Assembly (NCBI RefSeq): GCF_002078015.1
Contig: NZ_LWBP01000134.1
Span: 62,001 to 126,000 of the forward strand
Length of the DNA stretch: 64,000 nucleotides
Source of the DNA: Niastella populi
GTDB taxonomy: Bacteria; Bacteroidota; Bacteroidia; Chitinophagales; Chitinophagaceae
Direction: 5' to 3'
Made by a program: the position numbers and the translations under genes. Position 1 is the stretch's first letter. Each line of letters starts with the position of its first letter. Positions 2,915 through 9,164 of the stretch are shown piece by piece. Under the pieces are notes generated by a model, which worked only from the letters and a program-made list of their open reading frames with translations, made no database searches and was not told where the DNA came from.

Positions 2915-3373
2915 ATGAAAACCATTGTACTCATGGGCATTTCATGCCTTATGCTGGCTGGTGTGTATGGAGTAATGATCAAGAAGAGCGAGGTCAGCAA
3001 TCTTTTGTCCTTCAACAAGGACTACAATAACAATACGGTTCCCTCATTTGGTTCTGATAACCCCGACAAAGCCGCTCCGGCTTTCAATGGTACAGAAAAT
3101 AAAAAGTCTGCCTCCAAAACATTAGATGACAGTCATTGGATCGATGATCCGCTTTTTGAGAAAGCGGCAGGGTCTGAATTGATCATAGATTCTGAAGGGG
3201 AAGTGGCAGATGCCGGCCCAAAAACCAATCCCGAAACAATAAAAAGGGCAGCGCCGGAGCAGGACAAGAAAGAGATCACGAATCAACTCACACCTGAAGT
3301 AAAGCAGTTGATTTTGGAATTGAATCCTGATACATTGGCCGAGAAGAAAAAGGTGCCGGTGGAAGTGATTTAA
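2915..3373 (+). CDS. Hypothetical protein with N-terminal signal/anchor
   Basis: A 152-residue protein I do not recognise. Residues 1-20 form a hydrophobic segment after a single Lys (MKTIVLMGISCLMLAGVYGV), which fits a signal peptide or signal anchor. The remainder is hydrophilic, low in predicted structure and rich in Asn, Asp, Lys and Pro, ending in a Lys/Val tail. It probably lies outside the inner membrane. It is flanked by the recQ terminator upstream and its own terminator about 70 bp downstream, so it is a single-gene unit. The ORF is open over its full length and codon use looks coding, but there is no family evidence. Confidence 0.6.
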   Translation: MKTIVLMGISCLMLAGVYGVMIKKSEVSNLLSFNKDYNNNTVPSFGSDNPDKAAPAFNGTENKKSASKTLDDSHWIDDPLFEKAAGSELIIDSEGEVADAGPKTNPETIKRAAPEQDKKEITNQLTPEVKQLILELNPDTLAEKKKVPVEVI

Positions 3374-3440
3374 AACTGAATTTTTGTACGAAATAAAATA
3401 AAGAGACTGCAATAAGGGCATGAATAATGAATAAGCCGAC

Positions 3441-3471
3441 AGCATCCCACCGAACCGGGATGCTTTTTTTT
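3441..3471 (+). terminator. Intrinsic terminator
   Basis: Stem AGCATCCC / GGGATGCT with an 8-nt loop, followed by eight T. It ends the 2915-3373 unit. Confidence 0.85.
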
Positions 3472-3509
3472 AAAATTAATGCCAGAAAGCAGGAATTCTT
3501 TTTAATTTT

Positions 3510-3543
3510 TTTGCCGTTTTGTTAGGAATATCTCCTATTTTTG
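3510..3543 (+). promoter_or_regulatory. Bacteroidota-type promoter of tRNA-Phe
   Basis: A -33-like TTTG at 3510-3513 and a -7-like TATTTTTG (TAnnTTTG) at 3536-3543, 22 bp apart, about 36 bp before the tRNA. Confidence 0.55.
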
Positions 3544-3579
3544 CTGCCCGATTTAACCAATGGGTTTCAATCGGGAAAA

Positions 3580-3652
3580 GGTGCGGTAGCTCAGTCGGTA
3601 GAGCAAAGGACTGAAAATCCTTGTGTCGGCGGTTCGATCCCGCCCCACACCA
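3580..3652 (+). tRNA. tRNA-Phe (GAA)
   Basis: A 73-nt class I cloverleaf. Anticodon loop CTGAAAA gives anticodon GAA. The D stem is GCTC/GAGC with a GG-containing loop; the T arm is GGCGG-TTCGATC-CCGCC. The discriminator is A and CCA is not encoded. The acceptor arms GGTGCGG / CCACACC leave a C5-A68 mismatch where a T-A pair would be expected. A terminator follows at once, so this is a single-tRNA unit. Confidence 0.95.
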
Positions 3653-3663
3653 CGAAGAAAAGC

Positions 3664-3702
3664 AGGCAGTTATGAAGCAATTTCATAGCTGCCTTTTTCT
3701 TT
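3664..3702 (+). terminator. Intrinsic terminator of tRNA-Phe
   Basis: Hairpin AGGCAGTTATGAA / TTCATAGCTGCCT with one T-G mismatch, followed by TTTTTCT. Confidence 0.8.
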
Positions 3703-3848
3703 GGCCGGGGTTTCTAAGGAAATCCCTGCCTTCCGGCCTGAAGCCGCCAACGGCCGTTAATATCCTCCCAAACTTTATAGATTGAAAGTGATCATTATGA
3801 AAGTTATGATCGCTTTTTTATTTTTAATCAATCAACGAACTCCTCCGC

Positions 3849-4499
3849 GTGAAGACAGCTGCCTCCATACTGGGTTCCTTCATTGCATATGTAGCACTCT
3901 GCATTGGAACATACCTTATGCTACATATGGCTATTGAATATTCTTCCTTTGAAACAGATATCCATTTTCTCAGGTACAAACAGGATTACATTAACATTCC
4001 ACTATGGAAAGCGGCCTTCTATACCCACGTGTTCAGCAGCGTGCTGGCGCTTGCCGCCGGCCTCACGCAGTTTTCAGATGTCATCTTAAAAAAATACCGG
4101 CGCTTACACCGTATTGTAGGGTGGATCTACGCAGTGGATATTCTTATCATTAATTTTCCCGCAGCCATGATTATGGCATATTATGCAAACGGGCTGCTTC
4201 CTTCGAAAATCGCTTTTATACTTCTTGACTGTCTTTGGTTCTGGTTCACCTTAAAAGCTGTTATAGCCGCGCGCAACAAAGAGATCAATAAGCATAAACG
4301 ATTCATGATCCGCAGTTTTGCGTTGACCTTCTCGGCCATCACTTTGCGTTCATGGAAAATAATTCTTGCGGGCGTATTTCACCCCGACCCGCTTACCCTA
4401 TATATGATAGATGCCTGGATGGGATTTGTTCCCAACCTGTTGCTGGCTGAATGGTTTATCTGGAGAACAAATAAAAAACAGGCTATCGCTCAAAGCTGA
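3849..4499 (+). CDS. DUF2306-like integral membrane protein
   Basis: A 216-residue multi-pass membrane protein. Hydrophobic stretches are near residues 5-27, 58-78, 95-112, 118-140, 153-172 and 180-200. The pattern of helices with conserved His (LHRIVGWIYA, NKHKRFMIRSFALTF) matches the DUF2306 family, a group of predicted membrane proteins of unknown role in Bacteroidota. The start is a GTG at 3849; no better ATG lies nearby in frame. The last 17 bp overlap the 3' end of the convergent small membrane gene. The family call is moderate and the function is unknown. Confidence 0.75.
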   Translation: MKTAASILGSFIAYVALCIGTYLMLHMAIEYSSFETDIHFLRYKQDYINIPLWKAAFYTHVFSSVLALAAGLTQFSDVILKKYRRLHRIVGWIYAVDILIINFPAAMIMAYYANGLLPSKIAFILLDCLWFWFTLKAVIAARNKEINKHKRFMIRSFALTFSAITLRSWKIILAGVFHPDPLTLYMIDAWMGFVPNLLLAEWFIWRTNKKQAIAQS

Positions 4500-4689
4500 T
4501 ATTGAAAAGTATCAGCGCAAGTATTGCGGCCAGGATAACTATATAACTCCCAATCATTGTTATAATGCGAATCACTTTCGCATTCGGTTTCTCGGCTTTG
4601 GCCAGCGTTTTATATACAGCAAGGGAAATATGGTGAGCACCTAATACAGGTATCAGCAAAACGGCCAGAATTAACAACGGGAAGAGCAT
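4483..4689 (-). CDS. Small two-helix membrane protein
   Basis: Read from the ATG at 4689 this is 68 residues with two hydrophobic segments, near 1-20 (MLFPLLILAVLLIPVLGAHH) and 44-64, joined by a Lys-rich linker. A longer frame back to 4761 exists, but its extra residues look unlike a protein N-terminus, so I prefer the internal Met. It overlaps the 3' end of the convergent DUF2306-like gene by 17 bp. It lies about 100 bp downstream of tRNA-Tyr on the same strand with no terminator between, so it could be reached by read-through from the tRNA array. Function unknown. Confidence 0.5.
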   Translation of the reverse strand: MLFPLLILAVLLIPVLGAHHISLAVYKTLAKAEKPNAKVIRIITMIGSYIVILAAILALILFNISFER

Positions 4690-4787
4690 AACATAACGGT
4701 TATACCATAATATTACTCTTTTGTTTTGAAAACTAAAAGTTAAGTAAATTCTAATTGTCAACTCAACTCCATACTTAGATGAAAACC

Positions 4788-4876
4788 TGGTAGGGCGTGA
4801 AGAATTCGAATCTTCTGTGTTTCGTGTGTACCAGATTTACAGTCTGGCGTAACGCCTCCATGGTTACCGACGCCCT
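4788..4876 (-). tRNA. tRNA-Tyr (GTA), atypical; last gene of the array
   Basis: The anticodon stem CCAGA/TCTGG holds loop CTGTAAA, anticodon GTA. The T arm GAAGA-TTCGAAT-TCTTC is canonical, the discriminator is A and CCA is encoded. Oddities: position 8 is C, not T; the first pair is A1-T72, whereas bacterial TyrRS normally reads G1-C72; the D stem pairs over five bases (GTAAC/GTTAC); and the 15-nt variable region is nearly all A and C and cannot form the usual class II stem. Confidence 0.8.
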
Positions 4877-4920
4877 GAAAATATCCGCCTTTGCCGCTAT
4901 CTGACAGCTTTGACTTACAA

Positions 4921-5015
4921 TGGCGGAGAGCAAAGGAATCGAACCTTCATCCCGTGGTTAAACGAGAAACATCTTAGCAGGATGCCGCAGCAAACCAATA
5001 TCTGGCCTACTCTCC
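4921..5015 (-). tRNA. tRNA-Ser (GCT), irregular D arm
   Basis: A 95-nt class II tRNA with anticodon loop CTGCTAA (anticodon GCT), discriminator G as SerRS expects, and encoded CCA. The variable arm pairs TCTCG with CGGGA and the T arm is GAAGG-TTCGATT-CCTTT. The D arm does not fold in the usual way: position 8 is A, and the best local stem is AGGCC/GGTTT directly after the acceptor, leaving about six unpaired bases before the anticodon stem. Confidence 0.82.
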
Positions 5016-5096
5016 GTGAACTCATGTGTTAATGCCCGCCTTCGCCAGAGCTTCGGCGGGTGATGTCTGCTGTCGCTAATGCTTCAACGGACAATG
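5016..5096. repeat. 81-bp spacer in the tRNA array with a GC-rich inverted repeat
   Basis: This spacer is far longer than the others in the array, which are 5, 9, 11 and 44 bp. It contains CCCGCC (5035-5040) and GGCGGG (5055-5060) as an inverted repeat, with TTCG/CTTCGG in the loop. There is no T-run, so it is not a terminator; it may be a processing signal or a small inserted repeat. Confidence 0.5.
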
Positions 5097-5183
5097 CGGA
5101 AGGTACAGGACTCGAACCTGCAAACGCTGTTATACGTACGGCAGTTTTCAAGACTGCTTCATTACCGGTTATGCTAACCTTCC
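5097..5183 (-). tRNA. tRNA-Ser (TGA)
   Basis: An 87-nt class II tRNA. Anticodon stem GCAGT/ACTGC holds loop CTTGAAA, anticodon TGA. T8, A14, G18G19 and A21 are all present, the T arm is GCAGG-TTCGAGT-CCTGT, and the discriminator is G. CCA is not encoded. The variable arm pairs only weakly (ACG/CGT). It is the most regular of the two Ser genes here. Confidence 0.9.
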
Positions 5184-5192
5184 AATAAGTTG

Positions 5193-5268
5193 AGAGCAGG
5201 ATGGGAATTAAACCCACGTTAAATTGGTTTTGCAGACCAATCTCCATGTCAGCATTGAGTACCTGCTC
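5193..5268 (-). tRNA. tRNA-Cys-like (GCA) with altered elbow
   Basis: The acceptor GAGCAGG/CCTGCTC pairs fully; anticodon stem TTGGT/ACCAA holds loop CTGCAAA, anticodon GCA. The discriminator is T, the main CysRS identity base. Two features are abnormal: the T loop is TTTAATT, so the near-invariant C56 is T, and the D loop (ATGCTGACAT) has no GG, so the G19-C56 elbow contact cannot form. The D stem has only three pairs. CCA is not encoded. Confidence 0.7.
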
Positions 5269-5273
5269 AAATG

Positions 5274-5348
5274 TAGCCGCACCGGGATTTGAACCTGGAC
5301 TGTACAGATTTTAAGTCTGTTGTCTCCTCCCTGTTGGACTATACGGCC
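5274..5348 (-). tRNA. Class I tRNA with Leu anticodon TAA
   Basis: A 75-nt cloverleaf: acceptor GGCCGTA/TGCGGCT (two wobbles), T8, A14, G18G19, anticodon stem ACAGA/TCTGT with loop CTTAAAA (anticodon TAA), a five-base variable loop (ACAGT), T arm CCAGG-TTCAAAT-CCCGG with one A-C mismatch, and discriminator A. Bacterial tRNA-Leu is normally class II with a long variable arm, which is absent here. A14 and A73 suit LeuRS. CCA is not encoded. Confidence 0.7.
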
Positions 5349-5359
5349 GGGCATACACG

Positions 5360-5432
5360 TAGCCCCTGTGAGATTCGAACTCACACTATACTGTTTCTAA
5401 GACAGCAGCCTCTCCCGTTGGGCTAAAGGGCT
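5360..5432 (-). tRNA. Class I tRNA with Leu anticodon TAG; first gene of the array
   Basis: A 73-nt tRNA with acceptor AGCCCTT/AGGGGCT, T8, D stem GCC/GGC, A14, G18G19, anticodon stem GCTGT/ACAGT with loop CTTAGAA (anticodon TAG), a five-base variable loop (ATAGT), T arm GTGAG-TTCGAAT-CTCAC and discriminator A. The geometry is fully canonical class I, yet the anticodon is Leu (CUA/CUN), whose tRNAs should carry a long variable arm. Its 5' end directly abuts the T-run of the upstream terminator. CCA is not encoded. Confidence 0.75.
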
Positions 5433-5465
5433 AAAAAAAAACCCTTCAAGTTTTTACCTGAAGGG
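5433..5465 (-). terminator. Attenuator terminator before the tRNA array
   Basis: On the minus strand the stem CCCTTCAGG (5465-5457) / CTTGAAGGG (5450-5442) has nine pairs with one G-T wobble and loop TAAAAA. Nine T follow (5441-5433), then tRNA-Leu(TAG) starts at 5432. The 5' arm can instead pair with ATCTGAAGG (5532-5524) inside the leader ORF, nine pairs with one wobble, which would prevent the terminator from forming. Confidence 0.88.
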
Positions 5466-5494
5466 CTTATGCTTATTTAAGTTATGTATTTACT

Positions 5495-5587
5495 TTAACT
5501 CTTATTCGCATGAATATAACCGTCCTTCAGATCGTTGCTGTAACAACTGAGTGATAAAGACAGTAAATATGAATTGTTGCGAATCAT
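5495..5587 (-). CDS. Leader peptide of the tRNA array (Ser/Leu/Tyr/Cys-rich)
   Basis: A 30-codon ORF from the ATG at 5587 to a TAA ending at 5495. Residues 6-17 read SYLLSLSLSCYS: five Ser, four Leu, two Tyr and one Cys codon, with no other amino acid. These are exactly the four amino acids carried by the six tRNAs downstream, and each array anticodon can read at least one codon of the run (TTA; CTG/CTC by wobble; TCA; AGT/AGC; TGT; TAT/TAC). The terminator lies 30 nt after the stop. The antiterminator segment at 5532-5524 starts five bases after the run. By analogy with trp, his and leu leader peptides, ribosomes starved of these tRNAs would stall in the run and let the antiterminator form. 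The peptide itself probably has no role after synthesis. There is no Shine-Dalgarno site. Confidence 0.82.
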   Translation of the reverse strand: MIRNNSYLLSLSLSCYSNDLKDGYIHANKS

Positions 5588-5591
5588 ACAG

Positions 5592-5619
5592 CAAAGCTAG
5601 TAAGAATATTCAAATCAAA
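5592..5619 (-). promoter_or_regulatory. Promoter of the leader-tRNA array transcript
   Basis: A perfect TAnnTTTG -7 box, TAGCTTTG, at 5599-5592 with TTTG at 5619-5616 (16-bp spacing, slightly short). The leader ATG begins only 4 nt after the -7 box, so the message may be leaderless. Confidence 0.6.
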
Positions 5620-5629
5620 AAAGAATGGA

Positions 5630-5677
5630 TACGTTTTTTTTATAAAATAAAACAAGGCTTCCCATTAGGAAGCCTTG
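5630..5677 (-). terminator. Intrinsic terminator of fusA2
   Basis: Perfect 10-bp stem CAAGGCTTCC / GGAAGCCTTG (5677-5653) with loop TAATG, followed on the minus strand by TTTTATTTTAT and more T. It separates the EF-G paralogue from the tRNA array, so the two are distinct units. Confidence 0.9.
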
Positions 5678-5694
5678 TACACATCGTATCATGA

Positions 5695-7758
5695 TTAAAC
5701 AACTACCACATTATCAGGAGCCAGCTGATAATCATGGAACGTTAAAGAAACTGCCGCCCTTCCGGACGAAATGCTTCTTAACGTATTGATATACCCGAAT
5801 AAACACGACAAAGGAACTTCTGCCTTAATACACTGCACATTAGCTTTCATCTCAATTCCCCTGATGATGCCGCGCCGGCGATTTAAGTCACCGGTAACAG
5901 CGCCTGTATATTCGCCGGGTGTAGTTATATCAACCTGCATAACAGGCTCCAATAACTTTGGCGCGGCTTTCAACGCAGCTGCCTTAAAGCCCATGCCGGC
6001 CACCTGTTCAAAATCCTGTGCATGAGAATCCTTTTGATGAATATCGCCATCGAACAATCGTATACGCATAGATTGTACAGGATAACCTGCCAGCATACCG
6101 CATTGCATGGCCGCCGCAAATCCTTTTTGAACGGAAGCAATGAACTCCCTGGGTATGGCGCCGCCTTTGACCTCATCAACAAATTCCAGCCCCGGCGAAT
6201 TATGTTCACGTGGAGAAAGTTCAAAATGGATCTCTGCAAAATTGCCAGAGCCCCCATTCTGTTTTTTAAACACCTCCCTGTGAATAATGGCCTGGGTGAA
6301 TATTTCCTTATACGCGATCTGCGGCTGCCCCTTATTCACCTCCACTTCATATTCAGTGGCTAACCTTTCCAGCACAACTTCCAGGTGCAACTCTCCCATT
6401 CCTTTCAGAAGGGTTTGACCCGTTTCCCTATCTGTTTCTACCAAAAGGGTAGGATCTTCGTCGAGCAACCGCGCTAATGCTTCGCTTAACTTACCGGTTT
6501 CCTTCGATGATCTTGCTTCGATTGCATACCCTATCATAGGCTCGGGAAAAACAATGCTTTCCAGCAACACCGGCCTGCCAGGATCTGCCAGCGTATCGCC
6601 GGTCCTTACTTCTTTCATTCCTACCATTGCGACGATATCGCCTGCGCCAATCTGCTCAACCGTTTCATACTTATCACTCATGATGCGCATTAAACGGCTC
6701 ACCCTTATTTTCTTTCCTGTGCGGCTGTTCCATACAGTATCTCCCTGCCGCAATACACCGGAATATACTCTAACCAACGCCAGCTTGCCTGTATAATCAT
6801 TCGTGATGATCTTGAAAGCCAGTCCGGCGAATGGCGCAGCAACGTCTGTACTTACGGTTTTCAGTTTGCCGGTCAATGGATCCGTTCCTGTAACATCAGC
6901 AATATCAGCCGGTGAAGGCAGGTATTGCACAACCGCATCGAGCAACGGCTGAATGCCTTTGTTCTTATACGCGGCACCGCATACCACCGGCACCACCTGC
7001 ATATTTATAGTTGCTTCGCGCAAGGCGCTATAAATACTTTCAGCTGGTATGGCCGATGCATTGCTGGTAAACTGCTCAAACAACGTTTCATTTGTAAGCG
7101 ATAATTCTTCCAGCAAATGATTTCGTTGTTCCTCCGCATAGGGTAATAAATGATCCGGGATGCCGCCCACTTCAAAACGCTTTCCATCGTCGCTGTTCCA
7201 AAGCAATGCCTTCATGGTTATCAGATCGATAATACCGCAAAAATCATCTTCTGCGCCAATGGGCAACTGTATCGGAACTGCATTTGCATGTAACTGCGTC
7301 TTTATTTCATGTACCACATGCATAAAATGTGCGCCCTGCCTGTCCATTTTATTGATCATTACAATACGTGGTATGTTATACCGGTCGGCCTGGCGCCATA
7401 CCGTTTCCGATTGCGGTTGTACGCCCGATTTTGCACAAAACACCGCAACGGCTCCATCCAGTACACGCAACGATCTTTCTACCTCGGCAGTAAAATCAAC
7501 GTGACCAGGGGTATCGATAATGTTCACCTGGTATCTTTCTCCTGAATGATCCCAATAAGTGGTTATGGCAGCCGAAGAAATTGTGATCCCTCTTTTCTCT
7601 TCCTGCGGATCGCTATCCATCACCGTATTGCCATCGTCGACATTTCCTAACCGATGAATAAAGCCGGTATAATAAAGAATGCGTTCCGTAATTGTTGTTT
7701 TACCTGCATCCACATGAGCCATAATTCCTATATTTCTGAATTGCTGTAACCGTTTCAT
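5695..7758 (-). CDS. fusA2: Elongation factor G paralogue (EF-G2)
   Basis: A 687-residue translational GTPase, the usual EF-G length. EF-G drives tRNA-mRNA translocation and, with RRF, ribosome recycling. All GTPase motifs are present: AHVDAGKTT (14-22), the switch I RGIT (57-60), DTPGHVDF (82-89) and NKMD (136-139). Domains II to V follow, ending [13 protein letters not shown]. It stands alone, not beside rpsL, rpsG and tufA, so it is most likely the second EF-G of the genome and not the housekeeping copy. The sequence fits EF-G and not a tetracycline ribosomal protection protein. Two leader ORF-terminator units lie between its promoter and its start, so expression appears to depend on reading through two attenuators. 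Bacteroides EF-G2 is known to support translation under nutrient limitation; whether this is its orthologue cannot be settled here. Confidence 0.92.
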
Positions 7759-7782
7759 AAAGTATTTCTATAAAGAATGAAT

Positions 7783-7818
7783 AAAAAAAGCCTCCCGTCA
7801 CGCGGCGTGACGGGAGGC
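7783..7818 (-). terminator. Second attenuator terminator before fusA2
   Basis: Perfect 14-bp arms, GCCTCCCGTCACGC (7818-7805) and its complement (7803-7790), with a near-zero loop, then seven T, ending 24 bp before the fusA2 ATG. A termination signal placed inside a gene's own 5' leader implies conditional read-through. GTGACGTTAGG (7850-7840), which spans the stop codon of the preceding leader ORF, can pair with the 5' arm (six plus three pairs around a 2x2 internal loop). Confidence 0.85.
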
Positions 7819-7846
7819 TTCTGCAACATGCAAAACATACCTAACG

Positions 7847-7900
7847 TCACCGAACATGTTCAGTGAATACGCTGATTATTGTTTTGAGTATGAATTTCAT
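7847..7900 (-). CDS. Leader peptide 2 of fusA2
   Basis: A 17-codon ORF, MKFILKTIISVFTEHVR, whose TGA stop sits inside the segment GTGACGTTAGG that can pair with the 5' arm of the next terminator. A ribosome reaching the stop would cover this segment and favour termination; a ribosome stalled earlier would leave it free and allow fusA2 expression. There is no strong codon bias toward one amino acid apart from four Ile, so the signal may be general slow translation. No Shine-Dalgarno site is visible. The ORF is short and rests on its position relative to the hairpins. Confidence 0.6.
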   Translation of the reverse strand: MKFILKTIISVFTEHVR

Positions 7901-7957
7901 ATTGCTGATTAATAATTAATATCTAAAGGCCTGGAGAATTGTTGCGGGGAGACAAAC

Positions 7958-7986
7958 AAAAAAGCCCTCCCGGATGCCGGGAAGGC
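7958..7986 (-). terminator. First attenuator terminator before fusA2
   Basis: Stem GCCTTCCCGG / CCGGGAGGGC (10 pairs, one wobble) with a three-base loop CAT, followed by six T. It lies 24 nt after the stop of leader ORF 1. CCGG and AAGG of the leader's last codons can pair with CCTT and CCGG of the 5' arm as an imperfect antiterminator. Confidence 0.82.
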
Positions 7987-8009
7987 CATAGTATATTGAT
8001 AGTATACGA

Positions 8010-8138
8010 TTACCCCCTTTTATCCGGTAACGGGTTTGTCTCCCCATTTCCTATAAAGACAATACAAGTACTGGCAATTACAGCCCTGATGACTGCATTG
8101 GCGTTTATACCTGTGTTGTATGTGGTGGATGTAATCAT
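8010..8138 (-). CDS. Leader peptide 1 of fusA2
   Basis: A 42-codon ORF starting at the ATG at 8138, about 30 nt after a good promoter. Its first 28 codons are rich in Ile, Thr, Val, Ala and Asn (for example ITSTTYNTGINANAVIRAV), and it ends GNGETNPLPDKRG. The end overlaps a sequence partly complementary to the following terminator. The pattern resembles the leader peptides that control branched-chain and threonine biosynthesis in Bacteroidota, but the gene downstream is an EF-G paralogue. A longer frame upstream to 8240 crosses the promoter and is rejected. The assignment as a leader is inferred from layout. Confidence 0.62.
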   Translation of the reverse strand: MITSTTYNTGINANAVIRAVIASTCIVFIGNGETNPLPDKRG

Positions 8139-8167
8139 GATACTTAATGCGCGAAATAATTTCGATG

Positions 8168-8198
8168 CAAAACTATATAAATATTTCAAAACAACAAA
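8168..8198 (-). promoter_or_regulatory. Promoter of the fusA2 leader transcript
   Basis: TTTG at 8198-8195, exactly 19 bp, then TAGTTTTG (TAnnTTTG) at 8175-8168: an excellent Bacteroidota sigma-A-type promoter. It lies just after the bestrophin stop and directs transcription into leader ORF 1. Confidence 0.75.
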
Positions 8199-8252
8199 TC
8201 CCCGGTCCAAAAAGGGAGGAGATCTGTTTTCACCTGACACACGAAGCTATCT

Positions 8253-9164
8253 CTACATGATATAATAATATTTTTCCTGGCGCTTGTCTTCAGGCAGGTC
8301 CTGATCATGCATCAATTGTTTCAGATCTTTTTCTATAGTGCCGGCTATTGCGGTCATAGGCGTATCGGTTGGTTTGTTCTCAAACGGGTCCTGTAAATGA
8401 ATGGCCATTTTTTCAATCAGTAAAAAAGAGGCACTGATGGCTACCACCAACGGCACTTCAAGAAAACCGAAATAATCGATCACGCCGAAAGGCAGCATGG
8501 CTATAAATAACAACAAAGAGAAATGGATATATAAACTATAGGTACTTGGAAATACGGTATTCTTTATGCGTTCACATTTGCCCATGGCATCGCAGAGGCG
8601 GGTAAGCGTTTTGTCAATTTCCATTTGCTGATATCTGTTTATATAACCTTCTTCGAGGGCACGACGAAGGTCTTTTCCATGCTGATCGAGCATGGCCATG
8701 GGAACGTTATTGAAGCGGGTAAGGTATTCCATTTCCTTTCTGCTTAAATATTTCTCCAACCCGATGGTAGGGTTCAGGCGGCGCAGGCTTTGCCCCAGTG
8801 CATAACACCAGGCAATTTGCCGGCGGATCATCCGTTGACGCCAGATATGCACATCATCTTCTTCGTACTGACTACCGGTAAAGTTCAGCACCTGTCGTGC
8901 CAGCGTACGTGAATCGTTCACGATGGCTCCCCATACCTGCCGTGCTTCCCACCAGCGATCATATGCCTGATTGCTTCTGAAACCAAGCAGCAATGATATT
9001 ACGGTGCCCAATACGGCCGGCACCGCTAATGGAATACTTATCGGCACCTCGAGGAACCATTCATGTATTACTGCAATGGCTAAACTATACAACAGTATTA
9101 TGACCAATTCAACCTTTACTTTTCCAAACACATAACCTATCGGTATATTTTTTTTTAGTAACAT
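8253..9164 (-). CDS. Bestrophin-family ion channel
   Basis: A 303-residue membrane protein of the bestrophin/RFP-TM family, pentameric channels for anions in animals and for cations in the studied bacterial homologue. Diagnostic is the conserved block RSNQAYDRWWEARQVWG near residues 63-79 after two N-terminal hydrophobic segments (about 20-40 and 45-60). Two further hydrophobic segments lie near 207-250, and the tail is polar (HDQDLPEDKRQEKYYY). Length is normal for bacterial members. It precedes the fusA2 promoter on the same strand with no clear terminator between, so its message may run into the first fusA2 attenuator. Physiological role in this organism is unknown. Confidence 0.88.
   Translation of the reverse strand: MLLKKNIPIGYVFGKVKVELVIILLYSLAIAVIHEWFLEVPISIPLAVPAVLGTVISLLLGFRSNQAYDRWWEARQVWGAIVNDSRTLARQVLNFTGSQYEEDDVHIWRQRMIRRQIAWCYALGQSLRRLNPTIGLEKYLSRKEMEYLTRFNNVPMAMLDQHGKDLRRALEEGYINRYQQMEIDKTLTRLCDAMGKCERIKNTVFPSTYSLYIHFSLLLFIAMLPFGVIDYFGFLEVPLVVAISASFLLIEKMAIHLQDPFENKPTDTPMTAIAGTIEKDLKQLMHDQDLPEDKRQEKYYYIM

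Follow-up and report, generated by a model that had tools for sequence, protein, structure and literature searches.

Why would a bacterium place a short open reading frame (ORF) with an unbroken run of Ser, Leu, Tyr and Cys codons directly in front of tRNA genes for the same four amino acids? This question is raised by a locus on the minus strand of a 64,000-nucleotide stretch of the Niastella populi genome (8.6 Mb). We call the whole stretch the window. This locus starts with a promoter-like element; an ORF of 30 codons comes next, then a strong intrinsic terminator and lastly six tRNA genes (array A). The best reading, in which we have considerable confidence from comparative sequence analysis, is that array A is a backup tRNA set probably controlled by ribosome-mediated transcription attenuation through the leader peptide. 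An original prediction, made from the DNA alone, had proposed that the array is attenuated through a leader of its own amino acids, and our comparative tests support this idea.

The leader run matches the downstream tRNA genes

Residues 6-17 of the leader, SYLLSLSLSCYS, are exclusively Ser, Leu, Tyr and Cys, as had been predicted. The run uses three UCN, two UAY, two UUR, two CUN, two AGY codons and one UGY codon, which are exactly the boxes that the anticodons of the six downstream tRNAs read. The leader sequence is therefore enriched in codons of the products it would control, and a predicted intrinsic terminator lies between it and the first gene, as expected of an attenuator. Ser, Leu, Tyr and Cys together make up 20.4% of the residues in long window ORFs, which gives a chance of about 5e-9 per start for twelve consecutive ones; the original estimate, with a rough frequency of 22%, had been about 1e-8. 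No other such 12-residue run is present among the 127,996 six-frame residues of the window. The features of the locus, in the order of the minus strand, are as follows.

5592..5599, minus strand: promoter-like -7 element TAGCTTTG, with the ATG 4 nucleotides (nt) further on; read from the sequence and its relatives
5495-5587, minus strand: leader ORF MIRNNSYLLSLSLSCYSNDLKDGYIHANKS, 30 codons; a homologous ORF is in the same place in 9 relatives
5578..5584, minus strand: 5' half of the outer clamp, ATTCGCA, pairing with 5504-5510 in the minimum free energy (MFE) and consensus folds
5537..5572, minus strand: Ser/Leu/Tyr/Cys run, codons 6-17; boxes UCN, AGY, UUR, CUN, UAY and UGY
5559..5564, minus strand: strand 1, ACUGUC within the run; its partner in the consensus fold is the 3' part of strand 2
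5534..5547, minus strand: inner hairpin GUUG..CAAC over the codons Ser-Cys-Tyr-Ser
5522..5532, minus strand: strand 2, the antiterminator strand AUCUGAAGGAC, which mimics the terminator 3' arm
5504..5510, minus strand: 3' half of the outer clamp, TGCGAAT (MFE and consensus folds)
5468-5439, minus strand: intrinsic terminator, strands 3 and 4, 13 pairs, T run to 5433
5359..5432, minus strand: tRNA-Leu(UAG), 74 nt, short variable loop (ARAGORN, Rfam)
5273..5348, minus strand: tRNA-Leu(UAA), 76 nt, short variable loop (ARAGORN, Rfam)
5192..5268, minus strand: tRNA-Cys(GCA) (ARAGORN, Rfam scan)
5096..5183, minus strand: tRNA-Ser(UGA) (ARAGORN, Rfam scan)
4921..5015, minus strand: tRNA-Ser(GCU) (ARAGORN); best Rfam match tRNA-Sec, 32.1 bits, cut-off 47
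4788..4876, minus strand: tRNA-Tyr(GUA) (ARAGORN); Rfam 27.8 bits, cut-off 29

The predicted order of promoter, ORF, terminator and six tRNA genes was borne out, with the promoter in the form of TAnnTTTG, which we take to be the Bacteroidota-type -7 element. A generic sigma-70 scan found no promoter upstream of the leader; the Bacteroidota-type element was read from the upstream sequences instead. Since TAnnTTTG sits four bases 5' of the ATG in all ten array-A units, the array-A leader mRNA is probably leaderless, with transcription starting at about the ATG.

The ten units come from one family, Chitinophagaceae: seven from the genus of the window and three from a genus denoted g85, where they were found via similarity to the leader, the terminator and the first tRNA. 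The leader was present at all ten loci found; because the similarity searches that collected them used the leader as part of the query, leaderless arrays could have been missed. Within its own genus the locus occurs in 7/10 genomes, that of the window counted, and we found no array-A match in the near-complete G002 and G004 or in G006 (61% complete). The ORF keeps its position in all seven same-genus arrays and is also found in the three g85 genomes. As the original prediction had asked, we searched for the whole unit in relatives, and the codon boxes, the antiterminator strand and the terminator recurred together with the leader in 10/10 loci. Six units have 12/12 Ser/Leu/Tyr/Cys codons in the run and the other four have 11/12. 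G009 has a rearranged run end (SLSSCYYE) with an unchanged residue set. The ratio of non-synonymous to synonymous differences (pN/pS) among the seven same-genus units is about 0.29 within the run vs 0.62 after it, and by this measure selection on the protein sequence is tighter in the run than beyond it. A DNA search of the family matched 26/394 genomes and gave no array-A leader beyond the two genera; the matches outside g1 and g85 were short stretches, mostly at the first tRNA.

All six array-A anticodons are duplicated by ordinary Leu(UAG), Leu(UAA), Cys, Ser(UGA), Ser(GCU) and Tyr genes elsewhere in the genome, which makes the array redundant with the ordinary tRNAs. When array tRNAs were compared with fetched ordinary tRNAs for 14 common anticodons, the anticodon stem differed in 14/14 and the seven-base loop in 7/14. 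The array Leu tRNAs are 74 and 76 nt long and have no long variable arm, whereas the ordinary Leu tRNAs have 85-87 nt.

Predicted competing structures in the leader RNA

Strand 2, CUGAAGGGC in most array-A units, lies inside the ORF and copies the 3' arm of the terminator (strand 4), and could in this way pair with strand 3. The core ATCTGAAGG had been placed at 5532-5524, five bases after the run; the position was confirmed and the distance is four bases. Its predicted pairing with the terminator 5' arm is conserved across the units, while the window copy taken alone does not go beyond chance. Over the ten units, 94.4% of cells are paired in the 2:3 antiterminator, compared with 12-64% in slid controls. 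We further compared the pairing with synonymous recodings, drawn from the codon pool of the leaders themselves and later from window codon usage, and with window codon usage obtained P<=0.05 in 8/10 array-A units.

In the consensus fold of the ten leaders, ACUGUC within the run has GGGCAGU as its partner, a stretch overlapping strand 2, and the outer clamp and the inner hairpin form as well. The ACUGUC helix is retained in 9/10 units; it is broken in G169, where, read by eye, a shifted equivalent may exist. Four pairs of the outer clamp are present in this fold, with 87.5% of cells paired. The inner hairpin keeps 5/5 pairs in 10/10 units, and two of them are changed on both sides in G009, where GTTG..CAAC over the run end has become GTAG..CTAC. 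This GTTG/CAAC hairpin had been named as the possible 1:2 competitor. It stands as the inner part, and the main competitor is ACUGUC:GG(G/A)C(A/G)GU together with the outer clamp. In the leader fold including the terminator 96.3% of cells pair, vs 36-45% in slid controls, and 1/500 shuffles reaches 96.3%. The window leader folds far better than its shuffles (z -5.2, 0/200 as good).

We also folded the leaders with and without a ribosome, as originally proposed. With a stalled ribosome in the run and strand 4 still unmade, the predicted probability of 2:3 was 0.84 in the window and 0.70-0.78 as the mean of the ten units. Without a ribosome it was 0.01 in the window and up to 0.79 in other units. 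The state with a ribosome at the stop codon has zero 2:3 pairing by construction of the test.

Surroundings of array A

A gene for an EF-G paralogue lies just 5' of the array (window 5695-7758, minus strand). It is also directly upstream of the array in G007 and G008 and about 1 kb upstream in G009, and in G001 its place is taken by the end of what we presume to be a bestrophin-like gene. Between both tRNA-Ser genes there is an inverted repeat, CCCGCCGAAGC...GGCGAAGGCGGG (window 5024-5066, minus strand). Five short matches to it (27-40 bases) elsewhere in same-genus genomes look like an interspersed repeat. The Rfam scan of window positions 3000-8300 (E up to 1) gave no known cis-regulatory RNA above threshold; we attribute to chance a match to Phe_leader on the other strand, whose score was far under the cut-off (E 0.66). 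Elsewhere in the same genome four tandem tRNA-Lys(UUU) genes have a regular 208-base spacing (G000:C196:51885-52581).

Related leaders precede larger tRNA arrays and RtcB

The same genome carries a second array (array B, G000:C224) with tRNA genes for Pro, Gly, Asp, Gln, Arg, Lys, Asn, Glu and Phe by ARAGORN, and for His and Trp by eye; the corresponding array of G002 additionally has two Ile, Met and Trp. Array B has two leader-terminator units of its own and is followed by genes for an AAA ATPase, an RNase H-like protein, a protein without a Pfam match, a Band-7/slipin protein, a DinB-like protein and RtcB (PF01139 match), the last lying outside the window operon. The AAA ATPase match (L048:8605-9735 and homologues) spans one in-frame stop in G007, G003, G287, G167 and others, and this stop may lie just before the true start of the protein.

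The AAA gene is present in 87/294 genomes of the family. We fetched 80 loci at AAA genes and array-like matches and scanned them along with 7 earlier loci. A same-strand cluster of at least three ARAGORN tRNAs was found in 43/87 loci, the largest with 18 (L221). An Rfam scan of 19 loci gave 201 matches, and the 150 listed were all tRNA. One or two leader-terminator units are often located upstream of such arrays. Leader 1 has about 30 codons (e.g. MLRIQLHIESVNWFSPKADYTVCGACNAAG) and a GCCCCG-type terminator after it, and leader 2 has about 50 codons and a terminator of the CCCGGTCG type. Most of these leaders have, towards the end, a sequence that repeats the 3' arm of the terminator; examples in which this copy is weak or missing are the leader-2 units of L222, of L156 and of the genus of the window. 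The leader set has 75 entries (10 array-A leaders, 39 leader 1 and 26 leader 2) from 74 loci, leader 2 of G004 being entered twice (L073, L233). The terminator lies 18-33 nt past the stop codon in 74/75 entries, many of which were first found through nearness to a terminator; the exception is leader 2 of L185. A loose TAnnTTTG-type element is present in 28/39 leader-1 units. The strand-2 nucleotides GCGGGGC of leader 1 persist across differing reading frames (L180, L219, L170, L172, L177), and in L222 one pair has changed from GC to AT concertedly in strands 2, 3 and 4. In L214-L216 the terminator is separated from the first tRNA. In G011, G091, G110 and G182 (L244, L234, L241, L245) leader 1 and its terminator lie about 0.7-1.1 kb before RtcB, with no array detected.

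A second set of 80 loci was taken from named records; many of its genomes overlap the first set and several loci are cut by contig ends. Leader 1 was found in 43 of these loci and leader 2 in 26; both leaders are present in the records named N. vici, N. caeni, N. yeongjuensis and N. soli. Loci with at least three ARAGORN tRNAs had leader 1 in 30/35 cases, vs 13/45 for loci with fewer. No terminator was found within 60 nt of 6/26 leader-2 ORFs. In three of these six (L271, L273, L283) the first analysis had placed it at +29 to +32, the 60-nt stretch being too short, and L326 corresponds to the single terminator-less entry of the first analysis.

An order-wide search with a leader-1 profile matched 16/298 genomes, 15 of them within the family; the match outside (G485) has an internal stop and looks like chance, and we judged a partial match in G362 likewise. 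Across the phylum the AAA ATPase was found in 12/296 genomes, and the 12 loci had no ARAGORN cluster within 1.5 kb (one lone tRNA). No leader was found at the AAA loci of Chitinophaga-named records (0/10).

Leaders 1 and 2 contain nearly all amino acids

Leader-1 peptides have a mean of 18.26 amino-acid kinds, compared with 14.74 in equal-length stretches of window proteins, and 5/39 contain all 20 (about 0 expected). For leader 2 the mean is 19.62 vs 17.15, and all 20 are present in 17/26 entries (0.73 expected). After removal of near-duplicates, the coverage still exceeded that of column-shuffled alignments, with 18.20 vs 17.27 for leader 1 (n=35) and 19.61 vs 18.76 for leader 2 (n=23); 0/2000 shuffles were as high, a result that shared ancestry may inflate. 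The non-identical leader-1 peptides of the second set gave a mean of 17.7 kinds, all 20 in 3/28 and a terminator in 28/28. The non-identical leader-2 sequences, some of which differ from earlier ones just by the chosen start, gave 19.7 kinds, all 20 in 13/18 and a terminator in 13/18 within the stretch examined. At loci without a tRNA cluster leader 1 has 15-17 kinds (L162, L171, L175, L179, L168, L173, L212), with L210 (18 kinds) and L233 (20 kinds) as exceptions. The array-A leaders lack this breadth, with 13.80 kinds vs 14.89 in comparison stretches.

In the genus of the window, array A holds the tRNAs for Leu, Ser, Cys and Tyr. In this genus leader 2 of array B (6 units) has 16.1% Leu/Ser/Cys/Tyr vs 23.7% in 18 units at other loci, and 2.3% Leu vs 7.0%. 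This depletion concerns one clade, whose members G002 and G004 gave no array-A match.

We lean, by a modest degree, towards the view that these Chitinophagaceae leaders are "pangrams", selected for about all 20 residues, which would act as a general sensor of decoding failure and release tRNAs and RtcB, while the Ser/Leu/Cys/Tyr leader would guard a part of the array split off in two genera. Our confidence is not higher because the arrays could not be called near-complete and 3/10 array-A loci keep all six tRNAs. The original prediction had named homologous arrays without the Ser/Leu/Tyr/Cys run as a finding that would refute it. The larger arrays of other genera are such arrays, and we do not regard them as a refutation because their leaders hold nearly all amino acids.

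A model for attenuation of the backup tRNA genes

The anatomy of the unit, its conservation, the codon-box match, the redundancy of the tRNAs and the linkage of the larger arrays to RtcB are established at the level of sequence. From these we infer transcription, stalling, switching and tRNA function, and tRNA damage rather than amino-acid shortage as the natural signal. In our model transcription would begin near the ATG. During normal growth a ribosome close behind the RNA polymerase would cross the run and pass over strand 2. With strand 2 covered, strands 3 and 4 would pair and transcription would end without reaching the tRNA genes. If the ordinary tRNAs for Leu, Ser, Cys or Tyr were cut, depleted or uncharged, the ribosome would stall in the run and cover strand 1, leaving strand 2 free to pair with strand 3 and block the terminator. 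Backup tRNAs would then be made until decoding recovers. The larger Chitinophagaceae regulon would place tRNA arrays and the RtcB repair operon behind leaders of nearly 20 amino acids, and failure of almost any tRNA would trigger release. The loss of a tRNA, e.g. by an anticodon nuclease, would stall the ribosome and release up to 18 ARAGORN genes per array.

Several observations weigh against this model. Leader and array do not agree tRNA by tRNA, a notion that we dropped after comparing each locus. All six tRNAs are kept only in the window, G007 and G005 (3/10 loci, ARAGORN). The array of G008 has no Tyr gene (ARAGORN) and, by eye, that of G009 has no Leu(UAA), that of G001 has lost three tRNAs with Leu(UAA) lost or broken, and that of G003 has broken Leu and Tyr genes and no Leu(UAA). 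In g85, also by eye, G297 lacks both Leu genes, G169 lacks Leu(UAA), and G093 has a broken Cys gene and no Leu(UAA). Codons for the lost tRNAs persist, UUR in G009, G001 and G003 and CUN in G297. The g85 leaders have 1, 0 and 0 UUR codons vs 2 (1 in one unit) in the genus of the window; the low count fits the missing Leu(UAA), whereas G009, G001 and G003 do not fit. Leader 2 of the second genus with a split array (L170) is not Leu-poor. Furthermore, the array tRNAs score low and their Leu members have no long variable arm, so the function of these tRNAs is uncertain.

The RNA evidence has weak points as well. The antiterminator columns of array A show no covariation (500/500 shuffles reach the observed values), and the 1:2/3:4 fold has 3 double-sided changes, which 40/500 shuffles reach. 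The window antiterminator has an A.C mismatch and is equally good in 13.5% of synonymous recodings. In the larger system P<=0.05 was obtained only in 8/25 leader-2 and 14/39 leader-1 antiterminators, and the leader-2 antiterminators of the split genus were not better than chance under either recoding null. Leader 1 has just one double-sided pair change; its other changes break pairs (GGA for GGG, five units). For completed array-A leaders, equilibrium folding prefers the terminator in every tested state (0.82-0.96). Therefore the switch must act during transcription, through kinetics. Strand 2 of array A ends 23-32 nt before the stop codon, unlike the textbook trp geometry, and a ribosome at the stop codon would therefore not fully cover it.

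Alternative explanations

The leaders could sense ribosome stalls of any cause, such as those produced by translation-blocking antibiotics, with residue make-up of minor importance and the arrays as part of a general stress kit. A stall anywhere upstream of strand 2 would free it, and a parallel exists in Anabaena, whose silent trn operon is switched on by antibiotics that target translation; when the repressor TrcR is lost, rtcB and a slipin gene go up too (PMC10272220). We consider this explanation possible though clearly the less probable one, since the array-A leaders are nearly confined to the amino acids of their own array, and the coverage of leaders 1 and 2 beats both protein stretches and column shuffles, which a codon-blind sensor would not need. 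A signal of amino-acid starvation, as in trp and his attenuation, with tRNAs as mere co-regulated output, seems unlikely to us. The anatomy is the same as that of biosynthetic attenuators, and an uncharged tRNA stalls ribosomes equally well. However, the outputs are tRNAs in the window and tRNAs with RNA-repair genes at array B, we recognised no biosynthesis gene (a small ORF that follows array A in the window lacks annotation), and by our reasoning extra tRNA would give no relief of amino-acid shortage.

It is less probable still that there is no switch and the ORF encodes a short functional peptide or arose by chance, with the hairpin as an ordinary terminator or processing signal. Equilibrium folds that always favour the terminator, the sparse double-sided covariation and a T run that in the window abuts the first tRNA would all suit this explanation. 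It does not account for the joint conservation of frame, run and strand 2 in 10/10 units, for GCGGGGC persisting in leader 1 despite the differing frames, or for the separate terminators of L214-L216. Taken together, attenuation of a backup tRNA array remains our preferred reading, and the system likely guards against tRNA loss and not against amino-acid shortage or any stalled ribosome.

Relation to known systems

The trp, his, leu and ilv attenuators consist of a short leader ORF with regulatory codons, a terminator, an antiterminator and a 1:2 fold. The locus resembles them in its codon-rich leader ORF and predicted intrinsic terminator, and its antiterminator and 1:2 folds are predicted to compete in the same manner. 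It differs in its output, which would be tRNA genes and RNA repair, in the sensed set of four amino acids (array A) or nearly all 20, in the position of strand 2 inside the ORF, and in the probably leaderless start of array A. T-box leaders are cis RNAs which sense the state of a tRNA through the choice between terminator and antiterminator. The same choice would be made here by a cis RNA, but through translation of an ORF, and we found no T-box match at window 3000-8300 (E up to 1) or in the gathering scans among the 150 of 201 matches listed.

Anabaena PCC 7120 has a silent second tRNA operon, trn, repressed by TrcR, and rtcB and slipin gene expression is up in the trcR mutant (PMC10272220). 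As with array B, a second tRNA set stands beside house-keeping tRNAs and RtcB and slipin genes are linked to it. Control of trn, which answers translational stress, is exerted by a repressor protein, and the main text on trn contains neither "leader" nor "attenuat" (PMC10272220); here control would apparently lie with leader peptides and a cis RNA. An rtc RNA-repair operon responds to damaged tRNAs and is regulated by RtcR (PMC7790460). The array B locus shares the RtcB gene with it, though RtcB stands here behind leader-1 units. Our literature search found neither tRNA-gene attenuation by a leader peptide nor all-amino-acid leaders among the matches listed, which is weak evidence as few subscription papers were covered. 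The original prediction likewise knew of no described tRNA array under ribosome-mediated attenuation.

If the model holds, array A would be, to our knowledge and in the literature searched, the first case of tRNA genes under attenuation through the codons that they themselves read, and leaders 1 and 2 the first leader peptides built to sample the whole amino-acid alphabet. The array-matched and the pangram leaders offer a natural contrast for studying codon-specific attenuation. With such leaders a bacterium could notice that any one of its tRNAs is missing, and would need no special sensor protein to do so. The model also gives a directly testable answer to why some genomes hold a second, odd-looking tRNA set beside RtcB.

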